The position numbers and the translations under genes are program-made. Positions 11,081 through 47,500 of a stretch of DNA of 64,000 nucleotides are shown piece after piece. The stretch comes from Quercus robur (lineage: Eukaryota > Streptophyta > Magnoliopsida > Fagales > Fagaceae), in NCBI RefSeq assembly GCF_932294415.1, contig NC_065535.1, positions 86,077,862 to 86,141,861 on the forward strand. The letters are read 5' to 3'. How positions within the stretch are numbered: position 1 is the first letter of the stretch; every line of letters begins with the position of its first letter. The notes beneath the pieces are model-generated. The model searched no databases. It was given only the letters and a program-made list of their open reading frames with translations, and was not told the DNA's origin.

Positions 11081-11689
11081 GGCAAAAATGGCCCATTACC
11101 ATCAATTTTGGAAATAATTTGCCCAGAAACACTGTTTCTGAACTATATAGCAATGTACCACTTTTTCTGGTACTCGAGCTTGGTGAGCTCGAGTACCATG
11201 TTTTTTTAATCCACTGTCGCCCCATACTCAAGGAGCCCTATAGTGGCGTTTTTAACCCCTATAGTGGCGTTTTCGGGCCCTATAGTGATGTTTTCGGGCC
11301 CTATAGCGGCGTTTTCAGGCCCTATAGCGGCGTTTTCCTGCAAAAAAATTTTATAAGTTCCCATAACAGGTTCAAGGGGCCCTATAGTGGCGTTTTTAAG
11401 CCCTATAGTGACGTTTTTAGGCCCTATAGCGGCGTTTTCTTGCAAAAAAAATTTTATAAGTCCCCATAACAGGTTCAAGGGGCCCTATAGTGGCGTTTTT
11501 AAGCCCTATAGTGACGTTTGCGGGCCCTATAGCGGCGTTTTTTTTTAGAAGATGTTTGACCAATGAAAAGATGGTACTCAAGCTCACCAAGCTCGAGTAC
11601 CAGAAAAAGTGGCACATTGCTATATAGTTCAGAAACAGTGTTTCTGGGCAAATTATTTCCAAAATTGATGGTAATGGGCCATTTTTGCC
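11081..11689. mobile_element. Mutator-type MITE (609 bp) filled with nested tandem repeats
   Basis: Terminal inverted repeats of about 118 bp start GGCAAAAATGGCCCATTACC at both ends with very few mismatches. A perfect 9 bp target duplication TAATATATT occupies 11072-11080 and 11690-11698. The core (about 11218-11545) is built of units of about 21 bp around CCCTATAGTGGCGTTTT, arranged in a higher-order repeat of about 115 bp that also contains TTTTATAAG and CCCATAACAGGTTCAAGG. Unit 2 at about 32205-32225 keeps the uninterrupted target. There is no transposase. The open frame over the repeats (7-residue period around PYSGVF) is a by-product of the period being divisible by three. Confidence 0.9.
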
Positions 11690-12718: not shown

Positions 12719-13710
12719 CTGAGGAGTCTGATGGGTACCACACTAATCCTAGGCTTATTCAGGATCTCTGATCTCGTATTGAGAAATTTAAAAAGAGGGA
12801 AGAATGCATGTGGAAGCAAAGATCCAAAACTGATTGGTTGAAAGAGGGGAACCAAAACACAAAGTATTTCTATTGTAGAGCTAACCAACATAATAAAAGA
12901 AATTTTATTGCAGGTTTGGAGGATCATACAGGTGCATGGTTTGAGGAGGAAGGCCAAATGGCAAAACTAATTGAGGAGTACTTCGGTGCTTTGTTCACTT
13001 CATCAAATCCTTTAGGCTTTGATGAAATTTTATGTGGAATTCAACCATCGGTCACTAATGACATGAACGAGGACCTTACCCAGGAGTTTACTACAAAGGA
13101 AGTACATCAGGCATTGAAACAGATGGCCCCCACCACTGCTCCCTGGCCTGATGGTATGTCACCTATATTCTATAAATCTTTTTGGCATATTGAGGGTAAT
13201 GATGTCACCAGTATTGTCCTTAATGCTCTTAATTCTGGGGTTGTTCATGAATCTCTTAATTCCACTTTTATTTCCCTCATTCCTAAGGTTAAAAGTCCAA
13301 AAAAGGTTTCTAATTTCAAACCTATTAGTCTTTGCAATGTGATTTATAAACTTATTTCAAAGGTTTTGGTCAATCGTCTGAAACTTGTGCTCCCCAATAT
13401 TGTCTCTGATTCTCAAAGTGTCTTCTTATCGGGGAGGTTAATTACAGACAATGTGCTAGTAGCTTTTGAGACCCTCCATTACCTTAAAAGAAAGACCCAA
13501 GGGAAACTAGGTTTTATGGCTTTTAACCTTGATATGAGTAAAGCTTATGACCGGGTGGAATGGATTTTTTTGGAGAAAGTTATGAAGCATTTGGTGTTTG
13601 CTGACAGATTGATTAAAATAATTAGGTCATGTATGTCTTCAGTCTCTTATGCTGTCCTTTTGAATGGTCAACCAGTGGGTAGCATTTGGGGTGTGGCGTA
13701 TGATAAATAA
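12719..13710 (+). pseudogene. LINE reverse transcriptase, catalytic core deleted
   Basis: The readable frame is 12808-13710, preceded by a related segment broken by a TGA at about 12769. Motifs include WLKEGNQNTKYFY, APWPDGMSPIFYK, FISLIPKVKSPKKVSNFKPI and FNLDMSKAYDRVEW, all characteristic of plant L1-like reverse transcriptases. After LLNGQPVGSI the sequence jumps to an unrelated frame and stops. The conserved QGDPLSP and FADD segments are absent. That loss removes the polymerase active site, so the copy cannot mobilise itself. Neighbouring segments are in the same orientation and belong to the same element. Confidence 0.85.
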
Positions 13711-17439: not shown

Positions 17440-17576
17440 TGACGTCATCGCTGACGTCATCATCCACGTCAGCCCTAGCTGAGGTCTTCAGCTTACGTCA
17501 TCCTGCTGACGTCATCATAGTAGTTGACCGTTGACTTTGACTTTGACCTTGACCGTTGACTTTTCTCAAGGTTGAC
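17440..17576 (+). promoter_or_regulatory. dense cluster of TGACGTCA and TTGAC[C/T] boxes in the Copia leader
   Basis: Three perfect TGACGTCA palindromes lie at 17440-17447, 17452-17459 and 17507-17514, with extra ACGTCA half sites near 17466 and 17494. Seven W-box words TTGAC[C/T] start at 17524, 17531, 17537, 17543, 17549, 17556 and 17572. TGACG is the core bound by TGA-type bZIP factors and TTGAC[C/T] is the WRKY core, both tied to defence and stress transcription. Function in this position is inferred. Confidence 0.6.
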
Positions 17577-20500
17577 TTTTTGCAGTCCAGGTGCTCCTTA
17601 CCCAATTTTTCGCGTAGATTTCATTTTTGCAGTCCATTTCTGCATATTTTGCTTCGAAATGAAAAATAAGGACAGGTCTTCTTCTTATTGCAATAATCGT
17701 CGCCGACAATCCAGCAAATGTTTTTGCAATTTTTGCAAACGTTTTGGCCACAATATTGAGACTTGCTATCATCGCAACAAATCAGTTGTGTCAATTTCCA
17801 CTGCTACTGTTGCTAACACTGAGAGTGTCCAACCAATGGCTCCTATCTCTGCACAGTCTAAGTCTTCAGGACGCACTTTCACCATGTCCACAGATGACCT
17901 TAAAAATATTATCGCCAATGTCATTCGTATGGTTGGTAATGCATCTTATTCCTCTTCTCTCTCAGCTTTATCTGGTATGTCTCCTTCCTCTTGGCTTATG
18001 GATTCTGCTTATTGTAATCACATGACTCCTCACTCGTCCTTATTTTCTGAACTTAAACCTACACCACACCCTCTTAATATTCACATAGCAAATGGTTCCA
18101 CTATGTCTGGTCATAATATAGGTTCTATTTCGACCTCCAATCTCTCGGTTCCTGGTGTCTTTAATGTTCCTGACCTTTCTTACAATTTATTTTCTGTGGG
18201 ACAATTAGCTGAGTTAGGTTATCGCGTTATCTTTGATTATTCTGGGTGTATTGTGCAGGATCCAAGGACGGGACAGGAGCTTGGGACCGGTCCTAGAGTT
18301 GGGCGTATGTTTCCCGTGGACAACCTTCATCTTCCACTTGTTGCTCCTGTTTCTGTTGTTGTAGCTACTGCAGTTTCTTCTACTTCTTCCCTTGCACTTT
18401 GGCATGCTCGACTTGGTCATGCATCTTCCTCTTGAGTACAACAATTGGCTTCTAGAGGTTTGTTAGGTTCAGTGTCTACATAAAATTTTGATTGTGTTTC
18501 ATGTCAGTTAGGAAAACAACCAGCTTTGCCTTTCAATACTAGTGAATCAATATCCATTGATATCTTTGACCTTATTCATTCTGATGTTTGGGGGCCTTCC
18601 TCTGTCTCTAGTATTGGTGGATCTCGATATTTTGTTGTCTTTGTTGATGATTACTCTCGCTATAGCTGGATTTTTAATATGAAACATCGTTCTGAGTTAT
18701 TGCAAGTATATTCTAATTTTGCAAAAATGGTTGAAACTCAATTTTCCAAACGTATCAAAATTTTTCGATCTGATAATGCTCTTGAGTACACTCAATATGC
18801 TTTTCAAGCTGTTTTGCATTCCTATGGCACTGTTCATCAACTAACTTGTCCAGGTACCTCTCAGCAAAATGGTAGAGCTGAACGAAAACTTCGTCATATT
18901 CTTGACACTGTTCGTGCTCTTCTTCTCTCTGCCAAAGTCCCTGCTCCTTTTTGGGGTGAAGCTGCCCTTCATGCTATTCATGCTATTAATCGCATTCCAA
19001 GTCCTGTTATTCAAAATCAAACTTCATATGAGCGCCTTTTTGGGTCACCTCTAGACTATCACCACCTTCGCTCCTTCGATTCTGCTTGTTTCGTTCTTCT
19101 TCAGCCACATGAGCATAACAAACTTGAGCCTCAGTCAAGACTTTGTTGTTTTCTTGGCTACGGCGAAACTCAAAAGGAGTATCGGTGTTATAATCCTATC
19201 TCTCATCGTCTTCGTATCTCCCGCAATGTTGTCTTTTGGGAACATCGCTCCTTTGTCAAGCTCTCTCACTTCCGTGCCTCCCTATCTTCCTCCTCTGTTT
19301 TAGATCTTTTTCCAGATGAGGCACATATTCCTTCTGTAACTGCTCCTAATCCTCCTGTAGTTGCTCCTGATCCTCCTATAGACTTTTCTGTCCAACCACC
19401 AGATACCTTTGATCCCTTTCCTAGTTCACCTTTTAATGAACAGGTGGAAGATGCACAGGTTGAAGACGAGCTACCCAACCCTGAGCTTGGGTCCCCTGCT
19501 CCTGCTCCGCCTGAAGATCTTGCACAAGAAATTCCACCTCGTCACTCAACTTGGATAAGATCCATTCCTACACATTTACTTGATTATCATTGTTACACTA
19601 CTCTTGCTACACTGCATGAGTCTCACACCTATCGTGAGACTTCCACTGACCCTTTGTGGCAGATTGCAATGAAAGAGGAACTTGATGCATTATCTAAAAA
19701 TCATACTTGAGATTTGGTGACTCTCCCCCCTGGGAAATCTGTGGTTAGTTATAAGTGGATCTACAGGATTAAGACTCGCTCTGATGGGTCCATTGAGCGC
19801 TACAAAGCTCGTCTTGTTGCAAAAGGTTTTACACTAGAGTATGGGATTGATTATGAAGAGACCTTTGCTCCGGTTGCTCATATCTCATCTGTTCGAGCTC
19901 TCTTAGCTGTTGCTGCTGCCAGAAAATGGGACCTTTTTCAGATGGATGTCAAAAATGCATTCCTTAATGGGGATTTAAGTGAAGAAGTTTATATGCAACC
20001 TCCTCCTAGTCTCTCTGTTGAATCAAATAAGGTTTGTTACCTTCGGCGTGCTCTTTATGGCCTTAAACAAGCTCCACGAGCTTGGTTTGCCAAATTCAGC
20101 TCTACCATCTCTCGCTTAGGTTACATGGCCAGTCATTATGATTCTGCCTTATTTCTTCATCGCACTGACAAAGGTACTATTTTATTTCTCCTGTATGTGG
20201 ATGATATGATCATAACGGGTGATGACCTTAGTGGCATTCAAGAACTCCAGGGTTTTCTCAATCAGCAGTTTGAGATGAAAGATCTTGGACATCTCAGCTA
20301 CTTCTTGGGTCTTGAAATCACTCATTCTACAGATGGACTTTATATTACTCAAGCCAAGTATGCCTCTGAACTCTTGTCTCGAGCTGGACTCACTGATAGC
20401 AAGACTGTTGACACTCCAGTTGAGCTTAATGCGCATCTGACTCCGTCAGGGGGAAAACCGTTGTCTAATCCCTCTCTTTACAAACACTTGGTTGGCAGCC

Positions 20501-21144
20501 TAGTTTATCTCACTGTTACTCGTCCAGACATTTCCTATGCTGTTCACCAGGTGAGTCAGTATCTGTCTGCTCCATGATCGACTCACTATGCTGTTGTTCT
20601 GCGCATACTTCGATACCTAAAGGGCACTCTCTTCCATGGTCTTTTCTACTCTGCTCGGTCTCCTCTTGTTCTCCGTGCATTTTCTGATGCTGATTGGGCA
20701 GGAGATCCCACTGATCGCAGGTCCACCACTGGCTATTGCTTTCTTCTTGGTTCTTCTCTAATTTCTTGGCGAAGTAAGAAACAAACTCATGTGGCCCGCT
20801 CCAATACTGAAGCAGAATATCGTGCCCTTGCTGATACCACATCTGAGCTCCTTTGACTACGGTGGCTTCTCAAAGACTTAAGTGTATCCACATCCTTTGC
20901 TACTCCTCTATATTGTGACAACCAGAGTGCCATTCATATTGCTCACAATGATGTCTTCCATGAACGGACTAAACACATCAAGATCGATTGTCATTTTATC
21001 TGTTATCATCTTGTCCATGGTGCTCTCAAGCTGATCTCAGTTTCTTCTAAAGATCAACTTGCAGATATCTTCACCAAGTCACATCCTAAAGGACGTCTTC
21101 GCACTTTGGTTGACAACCTCAAGTTGATCTCACATCCACCTTGA
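17572..21144 (+). pseudogene. Copia polyprotein, one frame with five stop codons
   Basis: A single frame runs from 17572 to the final stop at 21142-21144 without a frameshift. In order: Gag zinc knuckle CNFCKRFGHNIETC; protease region with DSAYCNHM in place of the usual DSGA; LWHARLGHAS; integrase with HSDVWGP, FRSDNALEY and QQNGRAERK; reverse transcriptase with MDVKNAFLNGDL and YVDDMIITGDD; and RNase H with DADWAGDPTDRRST. Premature stops are at 18433, 18481, 19708, 20575 and 20854. Those at 19708 and 20854 sit where Trp is expected and 20575 where Arg is expected, so they look like G-to-A or C-to-T changes. Most of Gag before the zinc knuckle is absent. The element is not autonomous. Confidence 0.92.
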
Positions 21145-25431: not shown

Positions 25432-28400
25432 ATGGCAGGTGGATCTTTTGGCCCGGCAGGTGTGGCCAAAGAGAGAGCACAACAGTACAAAGGAAGACTC
25501 ACCTCTTATGTGATCATTGCCTGCACTGTTGCTGCTGTTGGCGGCGCAATTTTTGGCTATGATGTTGGAATTTCAGGTACTTCACTTTCATGAATCCGAA
25601 TCTTCACATGTTTATTATTATAGTTCTGGCTTTTTCGATGATTACTGTGGTGAAGAATCTACCAAATATTGTCATAAAAAAAATAATAATAGTAACAACT
25701 TTTTTGGTATCTGGAAATGATGAGCTAAAAAGTGAACAGTGAAAAGTTCAGACGTCACATGGACTTTGCATGTGTGCATATATGGACAGAACAGAATCAG
25801 AATTTCCAAGAGGAAGGGAAATTCTGTTTTGTACAAGTAGGAGTTAGACCTTTTCTATGACTATGATGAAATTATGAAACAAAGTGCAAATAAATTAGTA
25901 GTCTTTCCAATTCATACCTGAAATCTCTTCTAATGCACCAGCCAACATAAAGGCTCTGACATCTTCAAGAAATACTGAATCCTGTAGTTAATTATCTCAA
26001 AACACCAGTGGTCTTCCAATTTTCCTTCCTCTGTATTTGTATTATTATTATTTGTCCATTGAAATTTGGAACCCAACTTAAATTCAGTATACCAATGAAA
26101 AATTTCTCAAGCGTCTACTTCATCCTTTATTTGGTGCTACGAGGAAAATTATATCATAAAATTGTCGCAGAAAAAGGGGAGGTCTTCGTGTTGCTTCTTT
26201 TTCAGAAAATCAATGAACTAACTATCCAAATCTTAATCTTCTGGTCAATTTGAGACAAGAAAAAAAATAATCTTGGAATCTAATTCTATACTTTGCCTAA
26301 TAGTACAGATCACAGCCATGGTTTATCTCTAACTGAATTTAATGATGAGTGCTCTCCTTTTTTAAGATATGAATTGAACAGATTTTACACAAAAAAAAAA
26401 ATACAACCAACATAAAGTGCAGGATGCTATGAAACAAAGAGGTATTCGGTATCCAAAAGATCAGATTTTGAAAGCACTCTATTTCATAATTGTGGAAATC
26501 CGCTGTGACACGGTGAAAATTGATAAATTAACATTAGTCCGAAAAGTTTAAAGAGTTAGGAAATAGTGAATGTAACCATTATTCTAATACTTTTTTGTTA
26601 GTCAGATGATGCACTTGTGCTTGTCATGCATACATGTCTGAGGCATAGAGAGAGCATTCATGTTTTTACAAGTTACTAAATGCTGCTTTTTGATTAATAG
26701 GAGGAGTGACATCCATGGATACATTTCTTGAAAAATTCTTCCCTGCTGTTTTTGTAAAGAAGACGCAAGCACGTGAAAGCAATTATTGCAAGTACGAAAA
26801 CCAAGGGCTTGCAGCATTTACATCTTCTTTATACCTTGCTGGTTTGGTTGCTTCTCTGATGGCTTCTCCTGTTACAAGAAAGTTTGGACGTCGAACAAGT
26901 ATAATCTGTGGTGGGCTAAGTTTTCTTACTGGGGCAACAATAAATGCTTCTGCCATGAATATGGCAATGCTTCTTTTGGGTCGGATCATGCTTGGTGTTG
27001 GCATTGGATTTGCAAATCAGGTATATCCCGTTTCGCGTACCTTTTCAAGTGTTAGATAAATCAGGATATGATCCATTATAGTTTTTCTATATTTAAGAAC
27101 ACATGACTTAATCTTCCCTCTTGTTTGTTTTAAAGGCAGTTCCACTATATTTATCAGAGATAGCGCCAACACATCTTCGAGGTGGTCTTAACATGATGTT
27201 TCAGGTAGCAACTACATTTGGTATCTTTATAGCAAACATGATCAACTTTGGAACACAAAAGCTTAATTGGGGATGGAGGCTCTCTCTAGGATTGGCTGCT
27301 GTTCCAGCTTTGTTAATGACAGTGGGAGGAATACTTCTTCCTGAGACACCTAACAGCTTAATTGAGCAAGGAAAAAAAGAGAAAGGGAGAGAAATCCTTG
27401 AAAAGCTCAGAGGAACCAAAAATGTTGATGCAGAGTTTGAAGACATGGTGGATGCAAGTGAGCTTTCAAACTTAGTAAAGAATCCCTTTCGAAACATCCT
27501 TGAGAAGAGGAACAGACCAGAATTAGTAATGGCAATCTGCATGCCAATGTTCCAGATACTCACAGGCATAAATTCAATTCTCTTCTATGCTCCTGTACTG
27601 TTTCAAAGTATGGGGTTTGGTGGCAATGCCTCTCTCTACGCCTCAGCTTTGACTGGAGCAGTTCTTGCTTCATCTACATTCATCTCTATTGCAACAGTTG
27701 ATAAATTGGGTCGAAGGGCTTTACTTATAAGTGGCGGGATTCAAATGATTACATGCCAGGTAAAAACTTCAACACTAAATTAGGTTGTGACATAATAATA
27801 CTTCCAGGAGAAGTAAAATTGAAACTAGTACCGTAGATTCTAAGCACAGTCATACTTATGTTACTTCACAGAACACGGAATTTGCAACATTCCCCTAAAG
27901 TTTGTAATATGCTTTAATTCAGCAGCTCTAGTGAGAGAAGCTAAAGCCCTTTCTTAACACCAAAAAAGATTTGTTTTCCTGGAAATACACTAAAACTTAA
28001 TGAAATAATTACACCAATTCACAAAGTATCCAAAAAGTAATACCATAGTTGATGTCTGAGTTCTGGAGTTCCTTGATTCTATCAAATTAATCATTCTTTG
28101 TGTATCTGAAACAGGTCATAGTTGCTATAATCTTGGGGGTAAAGTTTGGCAACCAGCAAGAACTATCAAAAGGTTACTCAGTATTGGTGGTGGTCATGAT
28201 TTGCCTCTTTGTTCTAGCTTTTGGATGGTCATGGGGTCCCCTTGGCTGGACAGTGCCAAGTGAGATATTCCCGTTAGAAATTCGATCAGCTGGACAAAGC
28301 ATAACAGTAGCTGTAAACCTTCTATTCACGTTCATAATAGCCCAGGCTTTCCTTGCCATTCTTTGTGCATTCAAGTTTGGAATCTTCCTCTTCTTTGCTG

Positions 28401-33289: not shown

Positions 33290-33508
33290 TTTTGATAAAT
33301 CATGTTCTATTGTTTTATACTTTAAATTTTATTTATTTAAATTATAATTTTTTATTAAAAATCATGTTTCGTTTATTTAGAAATATTTATCAATTATAAA
33401 ATGTGTATTAGAAAATGTCCAACTGAATATGAAAATGAAAAACTAAGAGAGAGGGAGAGAGAGAAAAATTTAATCACAAAAAGATCAATGGATAAAGTTG
33501 TTACTAGT

Positions 33509-34186
33509 TGTAGTTGCACGATTTTCCTGGCCCAAACCCTATTGAGCAGGCCCTGGCCCAAGGCGCAACACACAATAAATACTTGTAGAGGATGGGTCAA
33601 AGAACTTAGCCTCAGTGAGCTTAGTTGGTCTGAGGTATGGAAAATGTTGTTGCAAGAATAAAGACACCAGAATGGATACTCCACAGAAGATTCTATTTCC
33701 TGAGTGCTGAATACATTTTTTCCATCCCCTTTCTTTGAGGGACTCCCTTACATTATATAGTTCTCTCATTCTTATCTGAACCTTACACTTGTTGATCATC
33801 TAAGCCCCCACTTGAGCACCTGTCCTATCAGACACCTTTATCACTCCCTTGTGAGTTGCAATGGCCAAGGTAATACTGTTCAGGGTCTTTTCCTCATTAA
33901 TGCGGTCAAAAGGGCGGTTGTGATACATTTAATGTGGTGGTAGCAGCTTTCCGTGAGATATTTTGGGTCTTATTCTTTTTTATATGATTGGAGGATGAGC
34001 TGCAGTGGTTGGGGCGAGTTTTTTGATCTGGACTTAGTGGTGTCCGAGGAGGTGTTACTCCTCGGACAGGTTTCTTTTACCACAGTTGGGCTTGAATAAT
34101 ATTTTGGCTATAACTTCTCCTCGGACACGATGCTTCTTGGACGGGCCTGTATTTAACTAGCCCATTATTTTGGGCCGGGCCCCACA
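33509..34186 (-). repeat. Tat-clade element 3' LTR
   Basis: 678 bp. On the plus strand it starts TGTAGTTGCACG and ends GGGCCCCACA. The element is transcribed on the minus strand, so this is the downstream LTR. Confidence 0.93.
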
Positions 34187-34200
34187 ATAGCCCCTCAAAA
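34187..34200 (-). promoter_or_regulatory. Tat-clade element polypurine tract
   Basis: On the minus strand TTTTGAGGGGCTAT lies directly before the 3' LTR. The related element at 59656 carries the same ATAGCCCCTCAAAA word at 60250-60263 on the plus strand. Confidence 0.8.
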
Positions 34201-34444
34201 CTCCGGTTTTTATCTCCTTCCGAGAAGAAAAGCGGGGTTTTGATGTCAGTGAGAGGATGGAAGTAAGGAAGGCTTGGGGCGCGCGTGCGGGCAGTTACTT
34301 TGGACACGCTACAATTTACGAAGCGCGGCCATTTACTTCCGGAGGCTTCTTGTCCCCTTCATCCAACGGTGAGACGTGGATCGAACGGCCATCATTATTT
34401 CTCGACTTTTTAGGCAAGGTCGATCTTTTCTCTCTCTTCCCGGC

Positions 34445-34452
34445 TATATAAG
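34445..34452 (+). promoter_or_regulatory. TATA box of the antisense gene
   Basis: TATATAAG in a GC-richer context (CGGCTATATAAGACGTC) lies about 270 bp upstream of the antisense ATG and outside the LTR. The placement fits an independent plus-strand promoter internal to the element. Confidence 0.65.
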
Positions 34453-34722
34453 ACGTCAGACAGGCTCCCTTTTTCTTTTTTTATCCGCACATCAGAATAG
34501 AGACCTCCAGAGAACTCCAGCGCCCAGAAATCCTTGAGCACATCCTTCCTTCAGATCTTCATAGTCATTTCTGCGAGGCACCCTTCATAGAAGAGCTTTC
34601 CGATTTCCTCATCGGTCATTTGAGAAGATACCTGTAAGTTCCGTTCGCTTTGTCGCTTCGACTTCCTCCTCGGACTTTGTTTTTCCCTTGGTCTTTATTT
34701 TCATTCTTCCAGTACAGCTCAG

Positions 34723-37137
34723 ATGGGTAGATTCGAAAAATTAGTAAATACTCCGGCCGCTATGGAGGCCTTTAGGGCAAAATACCACATTCCCCCGGGT
34801 GTGGGGCTGCAGTATTGTCCTCTTGAAGGAGTATTGACAAATAGAGGCGAGGAAGAAGTTGTTATCCCCATGATTGCTTTCATAGAGGGAGGGATGACAC
34901 TTCCCATGCGTAGGATTACAAGGGAGTACCTGTTCAACCATAAGTTGATGCCGCATCAGTGTGCCCCAAATATGTTCAAGATACTAGGCTGTGTAGATGT
35001 CTTAGATGAACGGATGAATCTAGGTCTTACTTGGCACGACGTGGCTTATCTGTATGAGTGTCACCGCCTCGAGAGTGGAGGGTATTATCTTAAATCCCGA
35101 TCCGAGGTTGTTAGATTGATCTCTTGTCTTCCAGTATCCAATAAGACCGTGAAGAATGATTTTCTTATTGCTTCGGGGGAGTGGTTCGATGGTATTCATT
35201 GTCCGACTCGGGCAGGAATCCCAGGTGCGGCGTCTTTAGGGCCAATCCTTTTGGGGAAAGGGTTTAGCATTGGGGGGTTATTTTTCTTGCTTTCCTTACA
35301 CTTGGAGAATTTCATGAACTAATCCCACTTTTCTTGGATGTTTGTAGATAAAGTTCACGTCGCTCCTCGGCTAAACTTCGTGAATGTGCCGGCGCTGAAC
35401 TACCTTCTGAGGTCGGAAATTTACGTTGCTGAGGACGGACAGCTACGTGTGGCTCATCTGGTTCTGGGCTATCAACCTCTAAGCCGCTCTTTCCAAGCTA
35501 TTGGTCACGCCATAAGGGCTGGCAGTCCGAGGTTGGCTAGGATTGACGTGTCCAAGATCGGGTTCCTAGCTCAACGTGATCTTCCACCGGTCGTACTACC
35601 CGGCGTTCAGCATCTCTATATAGCAGAGCAACTACCTCCGCCAGAAGAGCCTGGTGTTGCTGTTCCAGTTGAGGGGCAAATCGAATCATCTCGTCTTTCC
35701 CTGAAGGAAGAAATAGACGAGTTTTATTTTGAGGAGGAAGTTCAGCAAAACCCCGTGGTTGAGCTTTCTGATCCTGAAGGAGAGCAGGACCGCAACTCCG
35801 TGGCTGGTGGTCCAATCATAATAACCTGCTCAGACGACTCCTCGGACGGAGAAGGAGGTGATATGGGAAAGTCTCTGCTAGAGTTGATGTCCAGCCGAGG
35901 CAAGGGTCAGTCCTCGAAGGCGCCTGCCAAGGCACAAACCCAGGACCCACCTCCAATTGCCCCTCAGGTCCCTACTGATCCTGGCCTCAAGGCTATCCCC
36001 GACCTAAAAAAGAAAAGGCAGGCTGACATTCCTGAGGAGGGTGAGCTGGTTACCCGACCTTCTAAGCAGCAAAAGGCCACAAAGGGGCAGAGGAGTAAGA
36101 GGACAAACTCCTCTAAGAGCAGGGACGAGGAGAACCGTGCTGAGGTGCGCGCTACCCCGCGTACGTGGAGCCCTAAGTTGAAGTTGGATGGGGTTGCTAT
36201 CCCTTACAACTTGTCAATCCAAGAGTACAACCGGGGCCGAGCAGGGTACGTGGCTGATGCCTTAGAGCAACCCCTACTGCTTCCTCGGGATATGGAGGCC
36301 TATAGGCGGTTCTCTCAGCCCGAGATTTTCCTATCTCTTAAAAGGGATCTTGCGATGGTAAGTAATCCTTTTACTGTTTTATTAATTTATTTAACCCTGT
36401 TAAATTCTGAACCGATTTTGTTTCGTTTGCAGATTACTCAGCAGGTATTTGTGGCTGAGGAATTTTGTCGTGATAATCGAAGTCGGGCTGAGGCTGAGGC
36501 TGAGGCTCAGTCTCAGACAGAGATGGAGAAAGCCTTGGGGTCCCTCAAGCACGATCACCTTGAACTCACTGAGAAGTTCAAGGAGTCGGAGAAACGGCGC
36601 AAAAGTGCTGAGGCTGGTCTGAAGAGTGCCGAGACCCAGGCGGAGGACCAGCGCAAAGAGCTATATTCAACCCAGATCAACCTCGCCACCAAGAAGCAGG
36701 CAGTGCTGGATCTCAAGACTGCTCTACAAAAAGTCGAGGGTGAGCTGCGGCGGGTCAAAGAGGAGGCTCAGCTGATCCGAGAGGCTACGGAGGCTGAAAA
36801 GAATGCTGCTCGCCAGCTTGGGGTCCAAGAAACGGAGGCCAGGCTATCCGAGGAGATCCCCGAGGTGTGCAGGGACTACTGCAGCATCTCATGGGCTCAG
36901 GCCCTTGATGCTGCAGGAGTTCCTGCAGATTCGGTGCTAAGACTGCCTGAGAACGTCTTCTACCCTCAGGAGATCCGAGAGAATCCTGACGGCGTCCAAG
37001 CAGCTTCTGAGCAGGATTTGACGGTGCCAGATGCCGTCCCCATGCCTGACAACTCGAAGGATCCGGCTGCGGACCCTACCATCGAGGTTCCTCCTCCTCA
37101 GTCAGAGCAGAAAGAAGACCCTCCTGTCGAGGCTTAG
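34723..37137 (+). CDS. antisense gene carried by the Tat-clade element (738 aa, two introns)
   Basis: Joining 34723-35224, 35348-36357 and 36433-37137 gives 739 codons with no internal stop. Intron 1 (35225-35347, GT...AG) is required because the first frame ends at 35322. Intron 2 (36358-36432, GTAAGT...TTTGCAG) is 75 bp and in frame, so retention is also possible. Residues 1 to about 230 form a globular region (MPHQCAPNMFKILGCVDVLD, LTWHDVAYLYECHRLESGG) that resembles the plant 'putative gypsy-type transposon' domain (PF04195, tentative). A basic, disordered middle contains KKKRQ and KGQRSKRTNSSK. A coiled coil rich in Glu, Lys and Ala covers about residues 490-640. No catalytic motif was recognised. 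It runs opposite to gag-pol and is much better preserved than it. Function is unknown. Confidence 0.75.
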
Positions 37138-37454
37138 CTTTTAGGCTTTTTAATTTTTATATTTCCTTCCTCTCTTTATTATTATTATTTTTTTTTTTTT
37201 TTGAACGAGAGTCGTCCTGCTTTTGCGCTCTTTTGTAAGGACCTCTCTTTTTGTATTGATCTCGGAATATTAATATAGAATGTTTCCTTCATTTTCATGG
37301 ATTTATGTTAGCACCATCCCTTTATTTAACGCTGATAACGATATAAACGGTCAAGGTGAAGAGGATGTCTTGTAGCGAATTTGAATGAGGGTTGCAACGG
37401 TGCTAGACTGCGCGCACGCCTTAAAATGATTTCCCTTAGGTAATAGTTTCCCAA

Positions 37455-38346
37455 ATTGTCATGAGTAATAATTTCCCCTAAGTCTGTGGTCCGAGGATCC
37501 ATGCAGGACTTAGGTTCTGTTTAAAACTATGAGTAGTCGTCATAAGTAATAATTTCCCCTAAGTCTGTGGTCCGAGGATCCATGCAGGACTTAGGTTCTG
37601 TTTAAAACTTGTATAAATTGTCATGAGTAATAATTTCCCCTAAGTCTGTGGTCCAAGAAGCCATGCAGGACTTAGGTTCTATTTAAAACTATGAATAGTC
37701 GCCATAAATAATAATTTCCCCTAAGTCTGTGGTCCGAGGATTCATGCAGGACTTAGGTTCTGTTTAAAACTTGTATAAATTTTCATGAGTAATAATTTCC
37801 CCTAAGTCTGTGGTCCGAGGAGCCATGCAGGACTTAGGTTCTGTTTAAAACTATGAATAAATTGTCATGAGTAATAATTTCCCCTAAGTCTGTGGTCCGA
37901 GGATCCATGCAGGACTTAGGTTCTGTTTAAAACTATGAATAAATTGTCATGAGTAATAATTTCCCCTAAGTCTGTGGTCCGAGGAGTCATGCAGGACTTA
38001 GGTTCTGTTTAAAACTTGTATAAATTGTCATAAGTAATAATTTCCCATAAGTCTGTGGTCCGAAGAGCCATGCAGGACTTAGGTTCTGTTTAAAACTATG
38101 AATAAATTGTCATGAGTAATAATTTCCCCTAAGTCTGTGGTCCGAGGATCCATGTAGGACTTAGGTTCTGTTTAAAACTATGAATAAATTGTCATGAGTA
38201 ATAATTTCCCCTAAGTCTGTGGTCCGAGGATCCATGCAGGACTTAGGTTCTGTTTAAAACTATGAATAAATTGTCATGAGTAATAATTTCCCCTAAGTCT
38301 GTGGTCCGAGGAGCCATGCAGGACTTAGGTTCTATTTAAAACTATG
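37455..38346. repeat. eleven tandem repeats of 81 bp in the Tat-clade element
   Basis: Eleven copies each contain TCCCCTAAGTCTGTGGTCCG and GCAGGACTTAGGTTCTGTTT. The distance between the first two starts is 81 bp. Copies differ by a few substitutions and by variable spacers (ATGAATAAATTG, TTGTATAAATTG, ATGAGTAGTCG). The array lies between the antisense gene's 3' end and the integrase end. Tandem repeats at this place are known from Retand-type elements. Confidence 0.93.
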
Positions 38347-38413
38347 AACAGTCGTAAATAGATTAGCAGGCAGAGGATAATCACGAAACAAAACATGGGC
38401 GAAACCATTTTCA

Positions 38414-40342
38414 TTAATAACAATATCTTCTGAGGTTATTTACATTCCATGGTCGAGTTACGGTTTTTTCATCCAGATCTTCTAGGTAGTAAGCGCCTAT
38501 CCCAGCCACGGATGTGACACGGTATGGTCCTTCCCAATTGGGCCCCAACTTGCCCCAAGAGGGGTTTTTCGCGCTGCCGAGAATCTTTCTCATCACGAGA
38601 TCACCTGGACCTAGAGGTCGCAGCTTAACATTGGCATCATACCCTTGTCTCAGCTTCTGGTGATAATAGGCCATATGAATCGTGGCTTTTTCCCTTCTTT
38701 CCTCGGCTAGGTCTAGACTTCTTCCCAATAACTCGTCGTTACCGCTTGGGGTAAACGAGCTAGACCTCAGTGTGGGGAAGTTGTTCTCGATTGGGAGCAC
38801 GGCCTCTACCCCATAAGTCATCGAAAAGGGGGTCTCACCGGTTGAACGTCGCGGCGTTATCCGATAGGTCCATAAGACGTGCGGGAGCTCTTCTACCCAT
38901 CTTCCCTTTGCCTCATCCAGTCTTTTCTTCAGTCCGTTCACTATGACCTTGTTCACGGCCTCGACTTGCCCATTTCCTTGGGGGTATGCGGGGGTGGAAT
39001 ATCGATTAATAATCCCAAACTCGCGGCAATACTCCCTAAAGCTCTTACTGTCGAACTAAAGACCATTGTCGGAAATGAGTGTACGTGGAGTTCCGAAGCG
39101 GGTGATAATGTTCTTCCAGATGAATTTCTGGGCATCCACGTCCCTAATGTTGGCCAAAGGTTCAGCTTCCACCCATTTAGTGAAGTAATCGGTTCCGACT
39201 ATTATGTATCGCTTGTTCCCCACAGCTTTAGGGAAAGATCCGACAATATCAAGACCCCATTATGCGAACGGCCATGGGCTAGAGAATGGGTTGAGAACCC
39301 CTCCGGGTTGGTGGATATTCAGGGCAAATCTTTGGCACTGATCGCACTTTTTAGCGTATTCTTGAGCCTCTCTTTGCATGTTCGGCCACCAATATCCTTG
39401 GGTGAGTGCCCTGTGCGCCAGCGACCTTCCTCCGGTGTGACTTCCGCAAATTCCCTCGTGTAACTCCTCGAGTAGAGACTCGGATTCTTCTGGATGTACG
39501 CAGAGTAGGTACGGTCCAGAGTAGGAGCGCCGATATAGTTTGTGGTCGTTTGATAGCCAGAACCGAGGAGCATTTCTACGTACCTTCTCTGCCTCTAGTT
39601 TTTCTTCCGGTAAGATATCGTCTTGGAGGAATTTCTTTATGGGGTCCATCCAGCTGGGACTCTTTCTGATCTGATGGACTTGGGCCGGGTTTCCGCTGAT
39701 GGGACTCGCCCTGATTAGATCTTCTACAAGGATCATTCGTGGCAGATTACGCGCCGAGGACGTGGCAAGAGTGGCCAGCGAGTCTGCATAAGTGTTTACA
39801 CTTCTGGAAACATGCGTCAGATTGAATGACTCAAAACTCGTCTGCAGGCGTTTAACTTGTCCTAGATACTCTTGCATCCTAGCATCTCTGGCTTCCAGCT
39901 CACCCATCACTTGTCCGACGACCAACCTGGAGTCCGAGAAAGCTTCTATTACTCTTCCGCCCAATTTTTGAACCATTGTCATCCCTTGAAGTAAGGCCTC
40001 GTATTCGGCTTCATTGTTCGTAACCGAAAATCCGAGCCTCAGCGATTTTTCAATGGCAACACCGTTTGGTGATATTAAAACTATCCCAACTCCAGATCCT
40101 CTCTGGTTGGCCGCGCCATTCACGTAGACCTTCCATTGCAAGGTCCCCCCTGCCGAAATTACGCCAACCGATTTTCCATCCATGTCTTTCTTCTCGGTTA
40201 TTGTTTCTATAGAGGGTTCAGCAAACTCTGCTACCAGGTCTGCGAGGACCTGACCTTTAATGGAGGATCTGGGCATATATTTAATATCAAAGGCTCCCAA
40301 AAGCGCACTCCACATGGCGATCCTTCCTGTGTAGTCAGCGCT
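38414..40342 (-). pseudogene. Tat-clade pol: archaeal-type RNase H and integrase
   Basis: The minus-strand frame holds, in order, an archaeal-type RNase H (NNEAEYEALLQGM, SDSRLVVGQVMGE, NTYADSLATLA) and an integrase. The integrase has a zinc-binding HHCC region (ICGSHTGGRSLAHRALTQGY to CDQCQ), WGLDIVGSFPK, SDNG and NGQVEAVNKVI as the D,D,E triad, and a C-terminal GPYRVTSVAGIGAYYLEDL. The first RNase H acidic residue is Asn (VNGAAN, codon 40118-40120) where the family has Asp. Stops at 39260-39262 (TAA) and 39056-39058 (TAG) sit at expected Gln codons. The frame is otherwise continuous. The element's integrase would be truncated. Confidence 0.9.
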
Positions 40343-41733
40343 TCAAAGCACTGCTCGGAGGGGAAGCTGAGTTAGAACGATGACCGTATGCGCCTGAAAA
40401 TAATGAGGGAGCTTCCGGGTGGCCTGTACTACCGCCAGAATTGCCTTTTCTAGAGGTAGGTATCGTACCTCGGCCTCATGTAATGATTTGCTCACATAGT
40501 ACACCGGTCGCTGCACCCCATTATTATCCCGTATCAGTACCAAGCTTACGGCATGGGGAGTTACAGCGATGTACGCAAACAATACCTCGTCTGCCTCAGG
40601 GCTGGACATGATGGGGGGTCGTGACAAATATTCCTTAAGCTGCTGGAAAGCCCGAACACAATCCTCCAACCATTCAAACCCTTTCCACTTATTTATCAGG
40701 AGGTAAAAAAGTCGGCATCGATCCGCTGACCGCGATATGAACCGGTTTAATGCTGCAATCATACCAGTGAGCTTCTGTACTTCCTTCGGGTTCCAAGGAG
40801 CCTGTAGGCTGTTTATTGCTTTGATTTGATCGGGGCTCACTTCTATTCCCCTATGGGTTACCAAGTACCTTAAAAATCTCCCCGACCCGACCCGACCCCG
40901 AATGAACATTTGGAAGCGTTCAACCGCAACCGGTGTTCCCTTAAGATAGCGAAGATTTTTTCGAGGTCTTTCACGTGCTCGGACACCCTTTTACTTTTTA
41001 CAACCATATCGTCTATGTAAACCTCTATGATCTTGCCCAGTTGTGATTCGAACATCCGGGTCATCATCCTTTGGTAGGTTGAGCCTGTGTTCTTCAACCC
41101 AAACGGCATCACCTTATAGTGATAATTTCCGATGGGCGTCATGAAAGCCGTCTTCTCCTGGTCTTCTGGCGCAAGGGGGATCTGATGATAGCCCTGGAAG
41201 GCGTCCAGGAAGCTCATCCGAGGATGACCCACAGTTGCATCCACCAACCTGTCGATTCGGGGTAGGGGGAATGGGTCCTTTGGGCACGCCTTGTTCAGGT
41301 CCGTGAAGTCCACACAGACCCTCCACTTCCCTGTCTTCTTCCTTACCACCACCGTGTTTGCCAACCATTCGGGGTAAAAGACCTCTTTAATAGCCCCTGC
41401 TTTTTTCAGTTTTGCCACCTCGTCTCTCACGGCACTAGCGTGTTCCTTTGAAGGGCGTCGAGGTGGCTGCTTCTTCGGAGTGGAAGAGGGGTTGACATTC
41501 AGGTGGTGACAAATAAGGCTAGGATCAACTCCCGAGGTGTCGTAGGCGTCCCATGCAAACACGTCGACATTTCCTCTGAGAAATCTGACCAGTTCCTCTT
41601 TTTCTTGAGAAGGCAACTCAGAGCCGACCTGAAAAAACTTGTCCAGGTCGTTGTTGACAGCGATCTTATCTAAACTTTCACACCTTATCTCCTCGGCTAG
41701 CCCATCTCCTTGCCCGGCCGAGGAGGCTGGTTG
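40343..41733 (-). pseudogene. Tat-clade pol: reverse transcriptase and first RNase H
   Basis: Reverse transcriptase motifs in order: WLANTVVVRKKTGKWRVCVD, FTDLNKACPKDPFPLP, FLDAFQGYHQI, KVMPFGLKNTGSTYQ and the catalytic YIDDMVVKS. A frameshift at about 40870-40909 coincides with a short repeat of GGTCGG units and duplicates the GVGSGR segment. The frame then continues with FLRYLVTHRGIEVSPDQIKA and a degenerate RNase H (YYVSKSLHEAEVRYLPLEKA). It ends at a TGA (40343-40345) where Arg is expected. Upstream it is separated from gag-protease by a TAG at 41734-41736 in the same frame, which could be a mutation or a readthrough stop. Confidence 0.9.
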
Positions 41734-43895
41734 CTATGAGCTCTGTGGGGCCGAGGACTCGGCAACAGGTCGATGTAAGATGGCGGCAACCATACACTTC
41801 CTGGCTATGGCCTGATCTCCTCGGATTTCTTCTACTTGTCCTCTGGATGGGTATTTTACTTTTTGGTGGAGTGTGGAGGATACGACTTCTAGGGCGTGGA
41901 TCCATGGCCTGGCAACTATTGCGGTGTAGGGGGAGTAAGTGTCGACCACGATAAAATTTACCTCCACCACCTCCGACCCAGTCTGCACGGGTAGCCGGAT
42001 CTGCCCTTTCGGTGTAACAATCCTCCCTTCGAAACTGAGAAGGGGGGAATCATAGGCTGCCAAATCTTCCGGCTTCAGGTTCAGCCCCTTGTATAGATCA
42101 GGGTACATTATTTCTACCGCACTTCCTGAGTCTACTAACACCCTTCTCACATCGAAGCCTCCAATTCTTAACGTAACCACCAAGGCGTCATCGTGAGGTT
42201 GAATAGTTCCCCTCTTATCTTCGTCCGAGAATCCCAGTATCAAAGAGCTTCGCTTTTTCGACCTTTTGGGTTCCCTATTCCTGTCCTCGGAGTGGAGCCG
42301 ATCTACAGCCAGTACCTTGGGGATGGGTGGCCCAGTTCTTCCTGGTGCAGCAAGGATGACATGTATCGTTCCAGTAGGGGATCTTAAGGACACATCCTTT
42401 CGAGACTCTGGTATTGCTTGACCAGGATGTCCGCTCGAGGGGTGCAGAAGGTGACGTAACTTCCCTTCTCGGACCAACTGATTTAGGTGATTCCATAGAT
42501 TCCTGCAATCCTCAGTGGTATGCCCATGGTCCTGATGGTAGTGACAGTATAGGTCCTGGTTACGTTTGGAAGGGTCTCCGGCCATCTAAAATAGGGCTCG
42601 TTCCTTACTTTCTCTAGCATCTGTTGTACTGGCTCCCTAAACACGGCATTCACTGTTTGCGGGTGGCTCTGTCCAGCCTGTCGCGAGAAATCTTTCCTCG
42701 GCTGGCTAGGGTTATACCGTTCCGACCTAAAGTCATTTGCTTTTGGGGGAATGACCTTCTCCTTTCCCCTTCCTTGCAGCTGATCTTCCTCCACCCTTTT
42801 GTACTTGTCGATCCTATCCATCAGCTGATGAACGTCGGCAACTGGTTTACCAGTGAGGGATTTCCTCAAGCCATGCTCGGTGGGGAGGCCGTTTTTGAAC
42901 GTGCTGATAGCAACATCATCATGGTTGTCATCTAAGTCATTATACACCTCTCAATATCTATCCGAATATGCTTTCAAGGTTTCTCCTTCGTGCATGGATA
43001 AGGACAATAATGAACTAAGGGGTCGAGGGACTCTGGTGTTTGTGATAAAACGGGAGCAGAAAGCCTGAGTGAGCTGCTTGTAGGAGCCTATGGAATTTGT
43101 CTTCAAGCTGTTAAACCACCTCATCGCCATTGATCCCAAGCTAGATGGGAAGATTTTGCACATTAGGGCTTCATTTTGGGAGTAGATTGTCATTTTCTGG
43201 TTAAACTGGCTCACATGCTCTACCGGGTCTGCTCGGCCATTATAGATGGCGAACGCCAGTTGGTTGAAGCGCCGAGGCAGCTTAGCCCCTTCAATTCTAT
43301 ACGTGAAAGGTGATCTCGAAACCTGGTCCAGCGCCTTCTTCATAACATCGTTCCCTGAACCCTTACTGGATAGGTTCTCATATTTCCGTACAGGGCGTGG
43401 TTCCCTTTCGTAGGAAAAGGTTTCACTTGGGGGGGTCCTTGACCTCCGTCAGTAACTCGCATCCTCCGCACTAGAAGACTCGTCTGAGTCAGAGGGGGAT
43501 CGTTTTCGCCGCACACGTCGTAACTCCCTTTTCAGGTCGTCTATTTCCCGCTGCATGGCCTGATGACTATTTCGCCTCTGGGACACATGACTACCTGTCT
43601 GAGTGTAACTCTGGCTCGTCCGGATAGTATGCACACTTCCCTCACGATTCCCCCTGCCGCCTGGGTTGGTGGGGTTATTTTGCCTCTGGGACTCGGCGGG
43701 TTGTGTTTGTTGGGAGTTTGCCTGGTGGGAGTTTGCCTGGTGAGGATTCTCCTGGTGTGGGCCTAGTTCTACCATACTCGACCGTTGTGCCGGCTGATGC
43801 TCTAGTTCTTCCCACAGACGGCGCCAATTGTAGTTGCACGATTTTCCTGGCCCAAACCCTATTGAGCAGGCCCTGGCCCAAGGCGCAACACACAA
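41734..43895 (-). pseudogene. Tat-clade gag and protease
   Basis: The frame starts close to the 5' LTR. Segments: an N-terminal low-complexity part rich in His-Gln-Ala-Asn, the gag core (FNQLAFAIYNGRADPVEHVS, MAMRWFNSL), a second gag part (DVAISTFKNGLP), a zinc knuckle of the CHYHQDHGHTTEDC type, and a protease with VDSGSAVEIMYPDLY. Breaks are a TGA at about 43449-43451, a TGA at about 42948-42950 where Trp is expected, and a frameshift near 42585. No full-length Gag can be made from this copy. Confidence 0.88.
43811..43827 (-). promoter_or_regulatory. Tat-clade element primer-binding site
   Basis: On the minus strand, directly after the 5' LTR, the sequence reads ATTGGCGCCGTCTGTGG. TGGCGCCGTCTGTGGG-type sites are common in plant Tat-clade elements. 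Confidence 0.8.
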
Positions 43896-44507
43896 TAAAT
43901 ACTTGTAGAGGATGGGTCAAAGAACTTAGCCTCAGTGAGCTTAGTTGGTCTGAGGTATGGAAAATGTTGTTGCAGGAATAAAGACACCAGAATGGATACT
44001 CCAAAGAAGATTCTATTTCCTGAGTGCTGAATACATTTTTTCCGTCCCCTTTCTTTGAGGGACTCCCTTACATTATATAGCTCTCTCATTCTTATCTGAA
44101 CCTTACACTTGTTGATCATCTAAGCCCCCACTTGAGCACCTGTCCTATCAAACACCTTTATCACTCCCTTGTGAGTTGCAGTGGCCAAGGTAGTACTGTT
44201 CAAGGGTCTTTTCCTCATTAATGCGGCCAAAAGGGTGGTTGTGATACATTTAATGTGGTGGTAGCAGCTTTCCGTGAGATATTTTGGGTTTTATTCTTTT
44301 TTATATGATTGGAGGATGAGCTGCAGTGGTTAGGGCGAGCTTTTTGATCTGGACTTAGTGGTGTCCGAGGAGGTGTTACTCCTCGGACAGGTTTCTTTTA
44401 CCGCAGTTGGGCTTGAATAATATTTTGCCTATGACTTCTCCTCGGACACGATGCTTCTCGGATGGGCCTGTATTTAACTAGCCCATTATTTTGGGCCGGG
44501 CCCCACA
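43828..44507 (-). repeat. Tat-clade element 5' LTR
   Basis: 680 bp, about 97.5% identical to the copy at 33509-34186 by hand count. It is followed on the plus strand by the CTAGT target duplication. Confidence 0.93.
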
Positions 44508-47500
44508 CTAGTATTAAACAAAACACAACAGAAAATATGAGTGAAACTATAATAAATGAACAAGAAATTCATCAAAAAAAGTTAGAAGATAGTGAAATTA
44601 TACAACAAGAAGATAATAATGAAAATAGTCATAATAATGGTCAATCGAAAAAGAAATGTTAGCGAACTTTGAATACAAAAACTTAATTAGTAATTTTGTA
44701 TCTCAAAAGGTAAAAAAAATATAGTTTTTAAATAAAAATTTTTAATAATAAATATTATTTAAATATAAGTAAACGCCACCTAAACCTTTCATCTTAGGCT
44801 ACAAAATTTGTTTGAGACTTTGAGTGCATATCCTATAACAATCTCCTGAGGATAAGGACCGATTTTATGGGGGAGGAATGTTATGCCAAATACTATTTTG
44901 TGGATTAGCAATAACCCATCAAGTGTCAAACACACTAGTGTCTAAGTCCTTTGGAAACTTAAATAAGAAGTGTTACAAGTACTGCATAAAACTTGTAAAT
45001 TGATGTGGCAATGTGTTGACTCAAAATGAAAAATTGTTATTTGAATTAAAAATATTTAAATTTAGGTTTAGCGATAAATCTTTATCTAAATAATGTAGCA
45101 GTAGATTAGTATTGTTATTTGCTATATTCAAATAGATTCCTATGTTTTAGTATAAGATTATTGGATTAGTTCCTGTGTTTTAGGATTTGCTGATGAGATT
45201 CTCTCATTTTAGTTTGTATATGTAAGTTGAATGCATAATGACTAACGAGATTCAAGCATAAAATTAACCAAAAATATCTATTTTCTCAACTTGTGGATTT
45301 CAACTACCATCATAATTAATGTGTAGCTCTAACCCACATTTGAAGAAAGCAACTCTCACCCGAACATAAGAATGGGATTTTTTGGAGATGATACATCCCC
45401 TCAAATGTTTCACATAATAATTGGATCACATTTGCAAGATATTACCAAATCACATCTACCTATCAAGAGCATCAATCCCAACAAATAAAGAATAGAGAGC
45501 ATGTCGAAAATTGTCAACCAAATGTTAGATGTTACCAGGGACATGTCCAAAAGAATAGTAAGGATGCAAGATTCATGGTTTCAAATGATAGAGATCTTAG
45601 ATAAATAATCCAATGAAATTTTAGAGATATAAAACAATTAAAAGTACAAGTATCCTATGAAATTTTGAAAAATCATGTCCTACACCAGGAATCACCAACA
45701 ATTCCATAAAGTAATATGTTAGAGGGTGCAGATGTGACAAAAATTGCATTTAAAGATCAAAGAAAAAATGAAGTTGAAAAAACAGATCAAAAAGATCTTC
45801 TCGTGAATTCAAATAAGCCTGCTCTAATTTCATGCATTGAATTTGTCATTCCCAATAAGTTCAAGGACGTAGAAAACAAGAATTTTTGTTTCTATTGCTC
45901 GTAGAAGTGGTTGAAGAACTGGTGCAAATATCCATGATCTTTTCCTTATCCATCAACAACACTTCAAAAGAGATAAACTGTTATTTCCATGTCTTGGAAT
46001 CTTGAGAACAAGATTCATCTTGAAAATAGATAAACTGTTATTTAAATTTATTTAAAAGTATCTATATTTAAACTTAGTTAAATTGTTATTTGAATTAATT
46101 TGAAAGTATTTAAATTTAGACTTAATAATATATCTTTATTTGAATAAAATACCAACGATAAGTATTGTTATTTACTTGTATTCAATTTGATTCCTATGTT
46201 TTAAGATAAGATTAATTCTTATGTTTTAGGATTTAGGATTTGCTAATAAAGTTTTCTCATTTTAGTTTATTTATGTAAATTAAACCCACAATGAAATTCC
46301 AGCAAAAAATTAACCAAAAATATCTATTTTCTTGACTTGTGGGGTTTAAGTACCATCATAATTAACATGTAGCTCAATTTGAAGAAAGCAATTCTCACCC
46401 TAATATGAGAACTGGATTTTTTGGAGATGATACGTCCCCTCAAATGTTCCACAAAATGTTCCACATAACAATTGGATCACAGCTAAAATAACCACGAACA
46501 TATAGGACTTGTCCATCTTGTGGGCTAGTAGAAGTCAGACATCCAACACAAAGGATAAGGTATTAAAGTACACCACTGGATTGAACTTTCTTTAAGAAGA
46601 GGAGATCTAGGATTGATAATTTATAGTGTTCGATTTTAATAGTTTTTTTTCATTAACGCTAAATCAAATTATTTTATCATTGTATCATTTGTATGCCATT
46701 GAGTGAGTCAAAAGATTCAAGTTTAGTATACATTTTGTACCGTAAATCTGTAACCCATAAAGCCTTTTCTAGTTGACTAAACTAACAAAGTGTATGTCCT
46801 AAACACCCATATGTTATGTATCATCTCTTGATATCAGGTATTTGGCTAATTGGCAAATTAAGTACTCAACTTGTACATTTCAAAGCTTTGCAAATCACTT
46901 CAGATAACTACGCACTTTGCAATTAAATCATTCCTAATCAGACGGCTCAGTCATGCAAATTTATAACAGGATGCGGGAAAAAAAAAAAAAATCAAAAGAT
47001 CACATATCACGTCTAACAGGAATTTCATTGATCATATGGTATTCAAAAACAAGAAGTAATAATAACAAAATAACACACATAGAACACTGCAAATTTCTTA
47101 TCTTACCCTGAATTAGAATTAGCAGGTGAAATCAAAGCCACCCAACATGCTTCTTCAGAAGAAAAACTGCCCTATTTGTGATAGACATACCCATTATCAG
47201 AAAGGCTGGGATTTAGAGTAACACGATTCAAATTGATGGAGAGTGGCTGAGTTGAAGGGAGATCCGGGAAGAGGAGAGGAAGCACAAAGAATCCATACTC
47301 GATGCAAATTGGTTTAAAGGAGAAAGGAAGGACTGAGATAGAGACACGAAATCATATATAAAACTGTTGAAATGTATTATGTTAGTGACTCCCGCAAGGA
47401 ATGTTACACCGTTTCATTTAGCCTTCAATTGAAAGCCTCAAACATTAAGATGGGTGACAATTAAGACGGGACAACATTCTGCAAACAGAGGGAAAGAAAA

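Follow-up and report, generated by a model that had tools for sequence, protein, structure and literature searches.

The window analysed in this work, a stretch of 64,000 nucleotides from Quercus robur (NC_065535.1), contains an LTR retrotransposon at 33509..44507, recognized through its LTR pair and Pfam domain matches and carrying gag-pol on the minus strand. Comparison of the pair placed the 5' LTR at 43829..44507 and the 3' LTR at 33509..34186, the inner end of the latter being approximate (both minus strand; TG...CA ends read by eye); the two are 97.2% identical, with 18 mismatches and one gap over 684 columns, and the element is flanked by a target-site duplication, CTAGT, at 33504-33508 and 44508-44512, likewise read by eye. 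Pfam domains above cut-off comprise gag, reverse transcriptase (RT), RNase H, a second RNase H and the integrase zinc domain, while an aspartyl protease match falls below its cut-off (21.4 versus 24.3 bits). The gag-pol region occupies 38414..43916 on the minus strand, where the outer limits are those of open frames rather than of proteins, and in the window copy it is broken by six stops (minus-strand codon starts at 43451, 42953, 41736, 40345, 39262 and 39058) and two frame changes, one near 42.5 kb and the other at 40894-40898.

An RT_RNaseH_2 match (4e-18) with a separate RVT_3 match (3e-21) in adjoining frames points to the Tat clade of Ty3-gypsy elements; by our own reading the RVT_3 match is the archaeal-type RNase H (aRH), which is treated as a Tat marker in PMC6317226. 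Furthermore, an LTR of ~679 bp, an internal region of ~9.6 kb and a distance of ~4.2 kb between pol and the 3' LTR (38414 to the LTR) all fall within the ranges published for Retand elements (PMC11963269). We consequently describe the element as Tat-type and putatively Retand-like, with the Retand placement drawn from sizes and an antisense ORF. A tandem array of 11 x 82 bp, to which no strand is assigned, lies at 37453..38348 between the antisense gene and pol; a higher-order unit of ~245 bp can be seen within it, and tandem arrays are known for about half of recently active Retand elements (PMC11963269).

The antisense gene itself (34723-37137, plus strand) is situated between pol and the 3' LTR and consists of three coding exons, which in the window copy join into 738 codons with zero stops. 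Coding exon 1 (34723-35224) specifies residues 1-167, a divergent Transposase_28 (TRP28) domain, and is followed by intron 1 (35225-35347, phase 1, GTGCGG...TTGTAG); exon 2 (35348-36357) holds the end of the N-terminal part and a charged linker; and after intron 2 (36358-36432, phase 0, 75 nt, GTAAGT...TTGCAG), exon 3 (36433-37137) encodes a long helix and an acidic/proline-rich tail ending in a TAG stop, all on the plus strand. The initial annotation had credited the gene with its own TATA box outside the LTR, and a TATATAA is indeed present at 34445-34451 on the plus strand, ~260 bp beyond the LTR end at ~34186. Between this box and the ATG we also noted, by eye, a possible 5'-UTR intron that had previously been missed (GTAAGT...TTCCAG, 34634..34712, plus strand; alternative acceptor 34717 or 34722). 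A single-sequence AlphaFold model of exon 3 presents one helix at residues 2-141 of the exon, with pLDDT >=90 at 116 of 234 residues, in keeping with the coiled-coil protein proposed earlier; this long C-terminal helix is probably of the coiled-coil type. Exon 1 folded as a single sequence reached a pLDDT of 34, so that any DNA binding by this part rests on the published prediction for TRP28 (PMC11963269).

Several other features were seen elsewhere in the window. Two plus-strand repeats, at 8446-10106 and 26602-28261, lie ~18.2 kb apart and are 96% identical in the pieces listed; the second matches Pfam Sugar_tr and the first has a near-identical frame, as of sugar transporter genes. Inverted repeat arms of 124 nt at 11081-11204 and 11566-11689, 98% complementary and 361 nt apart, may belong to a small non-autonomous DNA element. 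By eye, plus-strand frames at 17560-20577 resemble a Copia-type gag-integrase-RT, and one at 12772-13710 (also plus) resembles a LINE-type RT.

Copies of the antisense gene in the same genome

To place the gene in the context of its family we searched the same 786-Mb genome; the 40 copies considered here are the 40 scored among 1581 first-look candidates, picked by similarity to the antisense gene, and the 3' LTR, promoter and gene were compared in the 39 copies besides the window. All 40 scored matches cover the gene fully or nearly so, and in 39 an LTR lies upstream as in the window, the exception being L018, which diverges from the window already within the promoter. The outer flanks of the copies have 32-51% raw identity to those of the window (L047 not being measurable). 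L020 and L021, 216 kb apart on C5, represent one segmental duplication carrying the element, with 260 bp of flank-side sequence at 99.6%; L016 and L022, on different contigs and apart on the tree, have 95 bp of common flank at 99%, perhaps as a result of insertions into the same kind of repeat. Independent insertions thus number at most 38 or 39, a bound obtained from a one-sided comparison of the flanks of 39 copies.

The gene structure is well conserved across these copies. The ATG and the stop codon are kept in 40/40 (38 TAG, 2 TAA), as are the GT donors of both coding introns, while AG acceptors are found in 39/40 copies for intron 1 and 38/40 for intron 2. Upstream, a TATAWA within 34400-34480 is present in 39/40 copies and the GTAA of the UTR donor in 38/40; some YAG occurs in the acceptor stretch of all 40, by what is a loose test. 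The earlier description of an intact antisense gene with two plausible introns is borne out by these counts together with the stop-free joining of the exons. If retained, intron 2 would be in frame and stop-free in 38/40 copies, so the reading frame does not force its removal.

With introns, a promoter-like element and a frame of its own, the gene resembles a host gene, and could in principle be one that was captured, or part of a nested insertion, with its antisense orientation an accident. Against this stand the 40 matches that span the gene or nearly so and the 39 with the LTR upstream, as well as the size of the family, with at least 150 scored places in the genome over the PF04195 cut-off, and the occurrence of such genes in 97% of surveyed Retand clusters (PMC11963269); we therefore regard an accidental passenger as extremely unlikely.

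Relationship of exon 1 to TRP28 genes

A key question in classifying the antisense protein is its proposed link to PF04195, for which the two profile comparisons differ. The Pfam model gives 13.0 bits for the whole protein and 16.2 bits for exon 1, below the cut-off of 26.2 bits, although PF04195 is found at E <=1 in all 14 aligned members; in contrast, exon 1 aligned against a profile of 12 TRP28 loci from the same genome gives an hhalign probability of 82% with an E of 1e-5 over 144 columns, and the proposed link is upheld on that basis. BLAST with exon 1 found 4/6 single loci at 22-25% identity; E ranged from 1.4e-6 to 0.02, the space searched being very small.

The introns correspond as well. 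Of 26 TRP28 loci taken for intron 1, four fall short of that point; among the other 22 the intron is in phase 1 with G|GTG in 20, 17 of them reading G|GTGCG like the window. In these loci it starts two codons and one base past the end of the domain as cut, and in the window one base past the last aligned residue, that is, two codons earlier and in the same phase. Intron 2 of the TRP28 genes is in phase 0 directly before the helical part in 6/6 loci (L073-L078), a correspondence of place that was judged by eye rather than from aligned sequence. Taking profile homology and gene structure together, we classify exon 1 as a divergent TRP28 domain, a member of this superfamily in the wider sense.

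Other observations on the TRP28 loci and on exon 1 can be noted briefly. As judged by eye from their frames, TRP28 genes seem to have extra introns that are absent from the window gene. L076 and others have equal PF04195 scores and long open frames of ~330-380 aa, and such equal-scoring loci suggest that another part of the genome harbours a family with TRP28 that is both young and abundant. Relatives of exon 1 were found neither among solved structures nor in IMG/VR, where 18 pattern matches yielded zero confirmed. A profile search among the structures gave a single match, to AbiA (E 0.3), which was taken as chance. A weak Pfam match to Fn1_2, below its cut-off with E 0.013 over the full protein and 0.0016 over exon 1, was likewise put down to chance.

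Selection on amino acids and the proposed decay of inserted copies

Evidence that the reading frame matters comes from how variants are distributed among the copies. In 38 copies (L018, whose LTR and promoter are unalignable, and the diverged L047 were omitted from codon-position and noncoding-expectation counts), columns with a variant in at least two copies amount to 18.3, 14.7 and 33.0% at codon positions 1, 2 and 3, while singleton-only columns amount to 25, 19 and 21%, with the third-position excess absent. This excess, together with the ATG and donors kept in 40/40 copies, indicates that the open frame is not due to chance. Consistent with this, the ratio of nonsynonymous to synonymous variants (N/S) falls with frequency, from 1.77 for singletons to 1.28 for variants in two copies, 0.94 in 3-5 copies and 0.34 in six or more (singletons versus three or more copies, Fisher P 6e-12). 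When majority letters are left out, N/S falls from 1.38 to 0.24 in the antisense gene and from 0.90 to 0.33 in pol. Relative to a noncoding expectation that takes methylation context into account, the ratio is 0.81 for singletons, 0.58 for two copies, 0.33 for at least three and 0.17 for at least six. Synonymous sites have 1.49 times the noncoding expectation of shared variants at three or more copies, an excess that by itself lowers the context-adjusted ratio; nonsynonymous sites alone still go down to 0.49. The falling trend in N/S persists with transitions only (P 2e-5), and with transversions only, which are too few, the signal is absent (N:S 9:6 versus 2:1). Shared variants have thus passed through strong purifying selection and singletons through little. 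We interpret this as purifying selection acting on the protein in source copies, with nearly neutral decay once a copy has been inserted.

These patterns also bear on the alternative that the antisense RNA is what acts, through dsRNA with the genomic RNA or through interference, and that the frame is a by-product. Regulation by dsRNA has been raised as an alternative or parallel role for antisense transcription in PMC7264820, and the retention of the TATA box in 39/40 copies would suit such a role. Codon-position and N/S patterns are, however, those of selection on amino acids, as is a mean pairwise dN/dS of 0.23, and the coordinates of the gene lie outside gag-pol. An RNA-based role is therefore unlikely as the explanation of the gene, whereas selection on an encoded protein agrees with the variants that copies share.

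In the initial annotation, the contrast between the open antisense gene and a decayed gag-pol was attributed to selection or to recent exchange, the former taken here to mean stronger selection than on pol. We compared the two regions in 26 copies, with pol represented by 40350-42450 only; the pol sample comprises 25 of the 39 other copies, namely those also among 40 scored pol matches, and because of this choice the decay of pol may be understated. The six stops and two frameshifts that had been reported for gag-pol were confirmed. One of these stops, a minus-strand in-frame TAG at 41734..41736 that separates protease from RT, is present in 26/26 copies, so the stop at 41736-41734 is not decay of the window copy.

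Followed by CAA CCA, this universal TAG lies in ATAGCAACCA, which is invariant while its surroundings vary. TAG CAA CCA conforms to UAG CAR YYA, described as the type I readthrough context of plant viruses in PMC3542737; the CAR YYA context is the same as in those viral signals. RT continues in the frame of the TAG, and by eye no nearby in-frame ATG was seen after the stop. Readthrough candidates among rice gypsy-type elements are mentioned in PMC2754532. We consider the universal TAG a candidate leaky stop, with an Ogre-like intron across the stop as a possible alternative. Ogre, which likewise belongs to the Tat clade and has its gag-protease and RT frames separated, carries an intron between them (Neumann 2019, PMC6317226), whereas the window element has one frame with a single TAG in the CAR YYA context.

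Once this codon is set aside, the preservation contrast is not seen in the stop counts of the family. Across the 26 copies the antisense gene holds 46 stops in 737 codons per copy, or 2.40 per 1000 codons, and pol 66 stops in ~695-696 codons per copy, of which 26 are the single universal TAG and the remaining 40 correspond to 2.21 per 1000 codons (46 versus 40, P 0.75). Stop-free copies number 5/26 for the antisense gene and 5/26 for pol without the TAG, not all of them the same copies. Stops as frequent as in pol, an outcome that the initial annotation had itself named as telling against its proposal, are therefore what the family has; dN/dS near 1 across copies, named alongside it, is not, and the value of 0.23 for the antisense gene is close to the 0.21 of pol, which supports the earlier suggestion of selection while giving no sign that it is stronger than on pol. 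Equal stops yet low dN/dS are both accommodated by a gene that is selected in active copies and afterwards decays near-neutrally.

Over all 40 copies the antisense gene carries 74 stops and four frameshifts, with five copies having neither; without L020, 39 copies carry 70 stops and six are stop-free, one of those being frameshifted. At the family rate the probability of zero stops is 0.17, or about one copy in six, and for the window copy alone five stops in gag-pol (~1750 codons) versus none in 738 give a Fisher P of 0.33. Exchange is also unneeded, since the nearest copy to the window is L009 in both regions (97.5% in the antisense gene, 97.3% in pol) and the private changes of the window copy in the antisense gene are ordinary in number (19 versus a mean of 16.5). 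The absence of stops from the window copy can be attributed to luck.

The idea that stronger selection or exchange keeps the gene intact retains two points in its favour: the contrast within the window copy, whose gag-pol has six stops while its 738 antisense codons have none, and the distribution of frame-breaking indels, which occur in 7/26 copies for pol and 0/26 for the antisense gene (P 0.01). All four frameshifted antisense copies, though, lie outside the 26-copy pol sample, and over all copies the comparison becomes 4/40 against 7/26 (P 0.10). Considering also the equal stop densities, the similar dN/dS, the shared nearest copy and the lack of any sign of youth, we think it very unlikely that this idea accounts for the intact frame.

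We further asked whether copies with a dead antisense gene spread. Observed against expected stops are 36/27.6 among singletons, 6/12.6 among variants in two copies, 5/13.8 in three or more and 0/4.1 in six or more. This depletion of stops among shared variants implies that copies with an open gene left more descendants, which in turn means that the protein probably benefits the element encoding it or closely related elements. On the tree, 11 of the 14 codons with a stop in at least two copies require a separate origin for every carrier; of the remaining three, two are explained by the duplicated L020/L021, leaving codon 255 in L023 and L026. Ordinary two-state variants, on the other hand, need a mean of 1.86 changes for two carriers and 2.72 for three, and the copy tree is star-like, with 86% of its length in the tips. 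Given this shape and the similar homoplasy of ordinary variants, the tree alone cannot show that dead copies fail to spread.

A probable element-borne gene and its relation to known systems

Together these analyses make it probable that the locus holds an antisense TRP28-type accessory gene of a Tat/Retand-like element, with its own promoter, spliced and encoding a 738-residue protein. Transcription would start from the TATA promoter, which lies a short way inward of the 3' LTR, and run counter to gag-pol, and the resulting antisense mRNA would be spliced; the introns would not be lost on retrotransposition, since the genomic RNA that is packaged comes from the opposite strand. In the predicted product, a TRP28 domain at the N terminus is followed by a charged linker and then by the long helix, probably a coiled coil, and by analogy with the gene23 of Grande we infer a nuclear role, linked to DNA or nucleoprotein, in the cycle of the element. 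The drop of N/S to the level of pol suggests that the protein matters to how its carrier copies spread, and following insertion a copy would decay near-neutrally, the window copy being one whose antisense gene is still free of stops.

The kinship with antisense ORFs of Grande- and Retand-type elements that the initial annotation had put forward holds up well. Like the window gene, the Retand ORFs (PMC11963269) lie antisense between pol and the 3' LTR, have a TRP28 domain and, in some cases, Smc-like parts, and share their region with tandem repeats; they differ in that the window protein scores under the Pfam cut-off, and in that ORFs of >=600 bp are listed there, whereas in the window a single gene has these open frames as its exons. 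Going by that survey, the 26 TRP28 loci compared for intron 1 would likewise lie antisense within elements. Gene23 of Grande is another accessory gene in antisense orientation whose own promoter precedes it, comparable to the promoter-like TATA of the window; it is reported to be expressed and nuclear (Gomez-Orte 2013, PMC7264820).

Antisense genes are thus already recognized as typical of these transposons; what was not found in print is the exon structure that the window gene and the TRP28 genes have in common. The function of the Retand ORFs is unknown according to Vicient 2025 (PMC11963269), in whose text 'intron' and 'splicing' have 0 occurrences each, and extra ORFs are described as very divergent, with their function questioned, in Neumann 2019 (PMC6317226). 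We found no published report of conserved introns in such genes, a weak negative given that subscription papers were mostly outside the search; a search for antisense and spliced transcripts is urged by Vicient and Casacuberta 2020 (PMC7264820).

In this study, amino-acid selection on such a gene was measured inside one family, where singletons provide the internal control and pol the standard of comparison, and corresponding introns tie a gene missed by the Pfam cut-off to the TRP28 genes. As introns on the opposite strand survive reverse transcription, they offer a ready marker for tracing genes of this kind. It is conceivable, if still a little short of probable, that a single ancient gene of several exons accounts for most of the antisense ORFs called 'heterogeneous' in Retand elements, a gene whose common descent would be shown by corresponding introns of equal phase where similarity in sequence nears its limit and whose product would be needed by the copy that encodes it, in which case published ORF counts may partly be counts of its exons.
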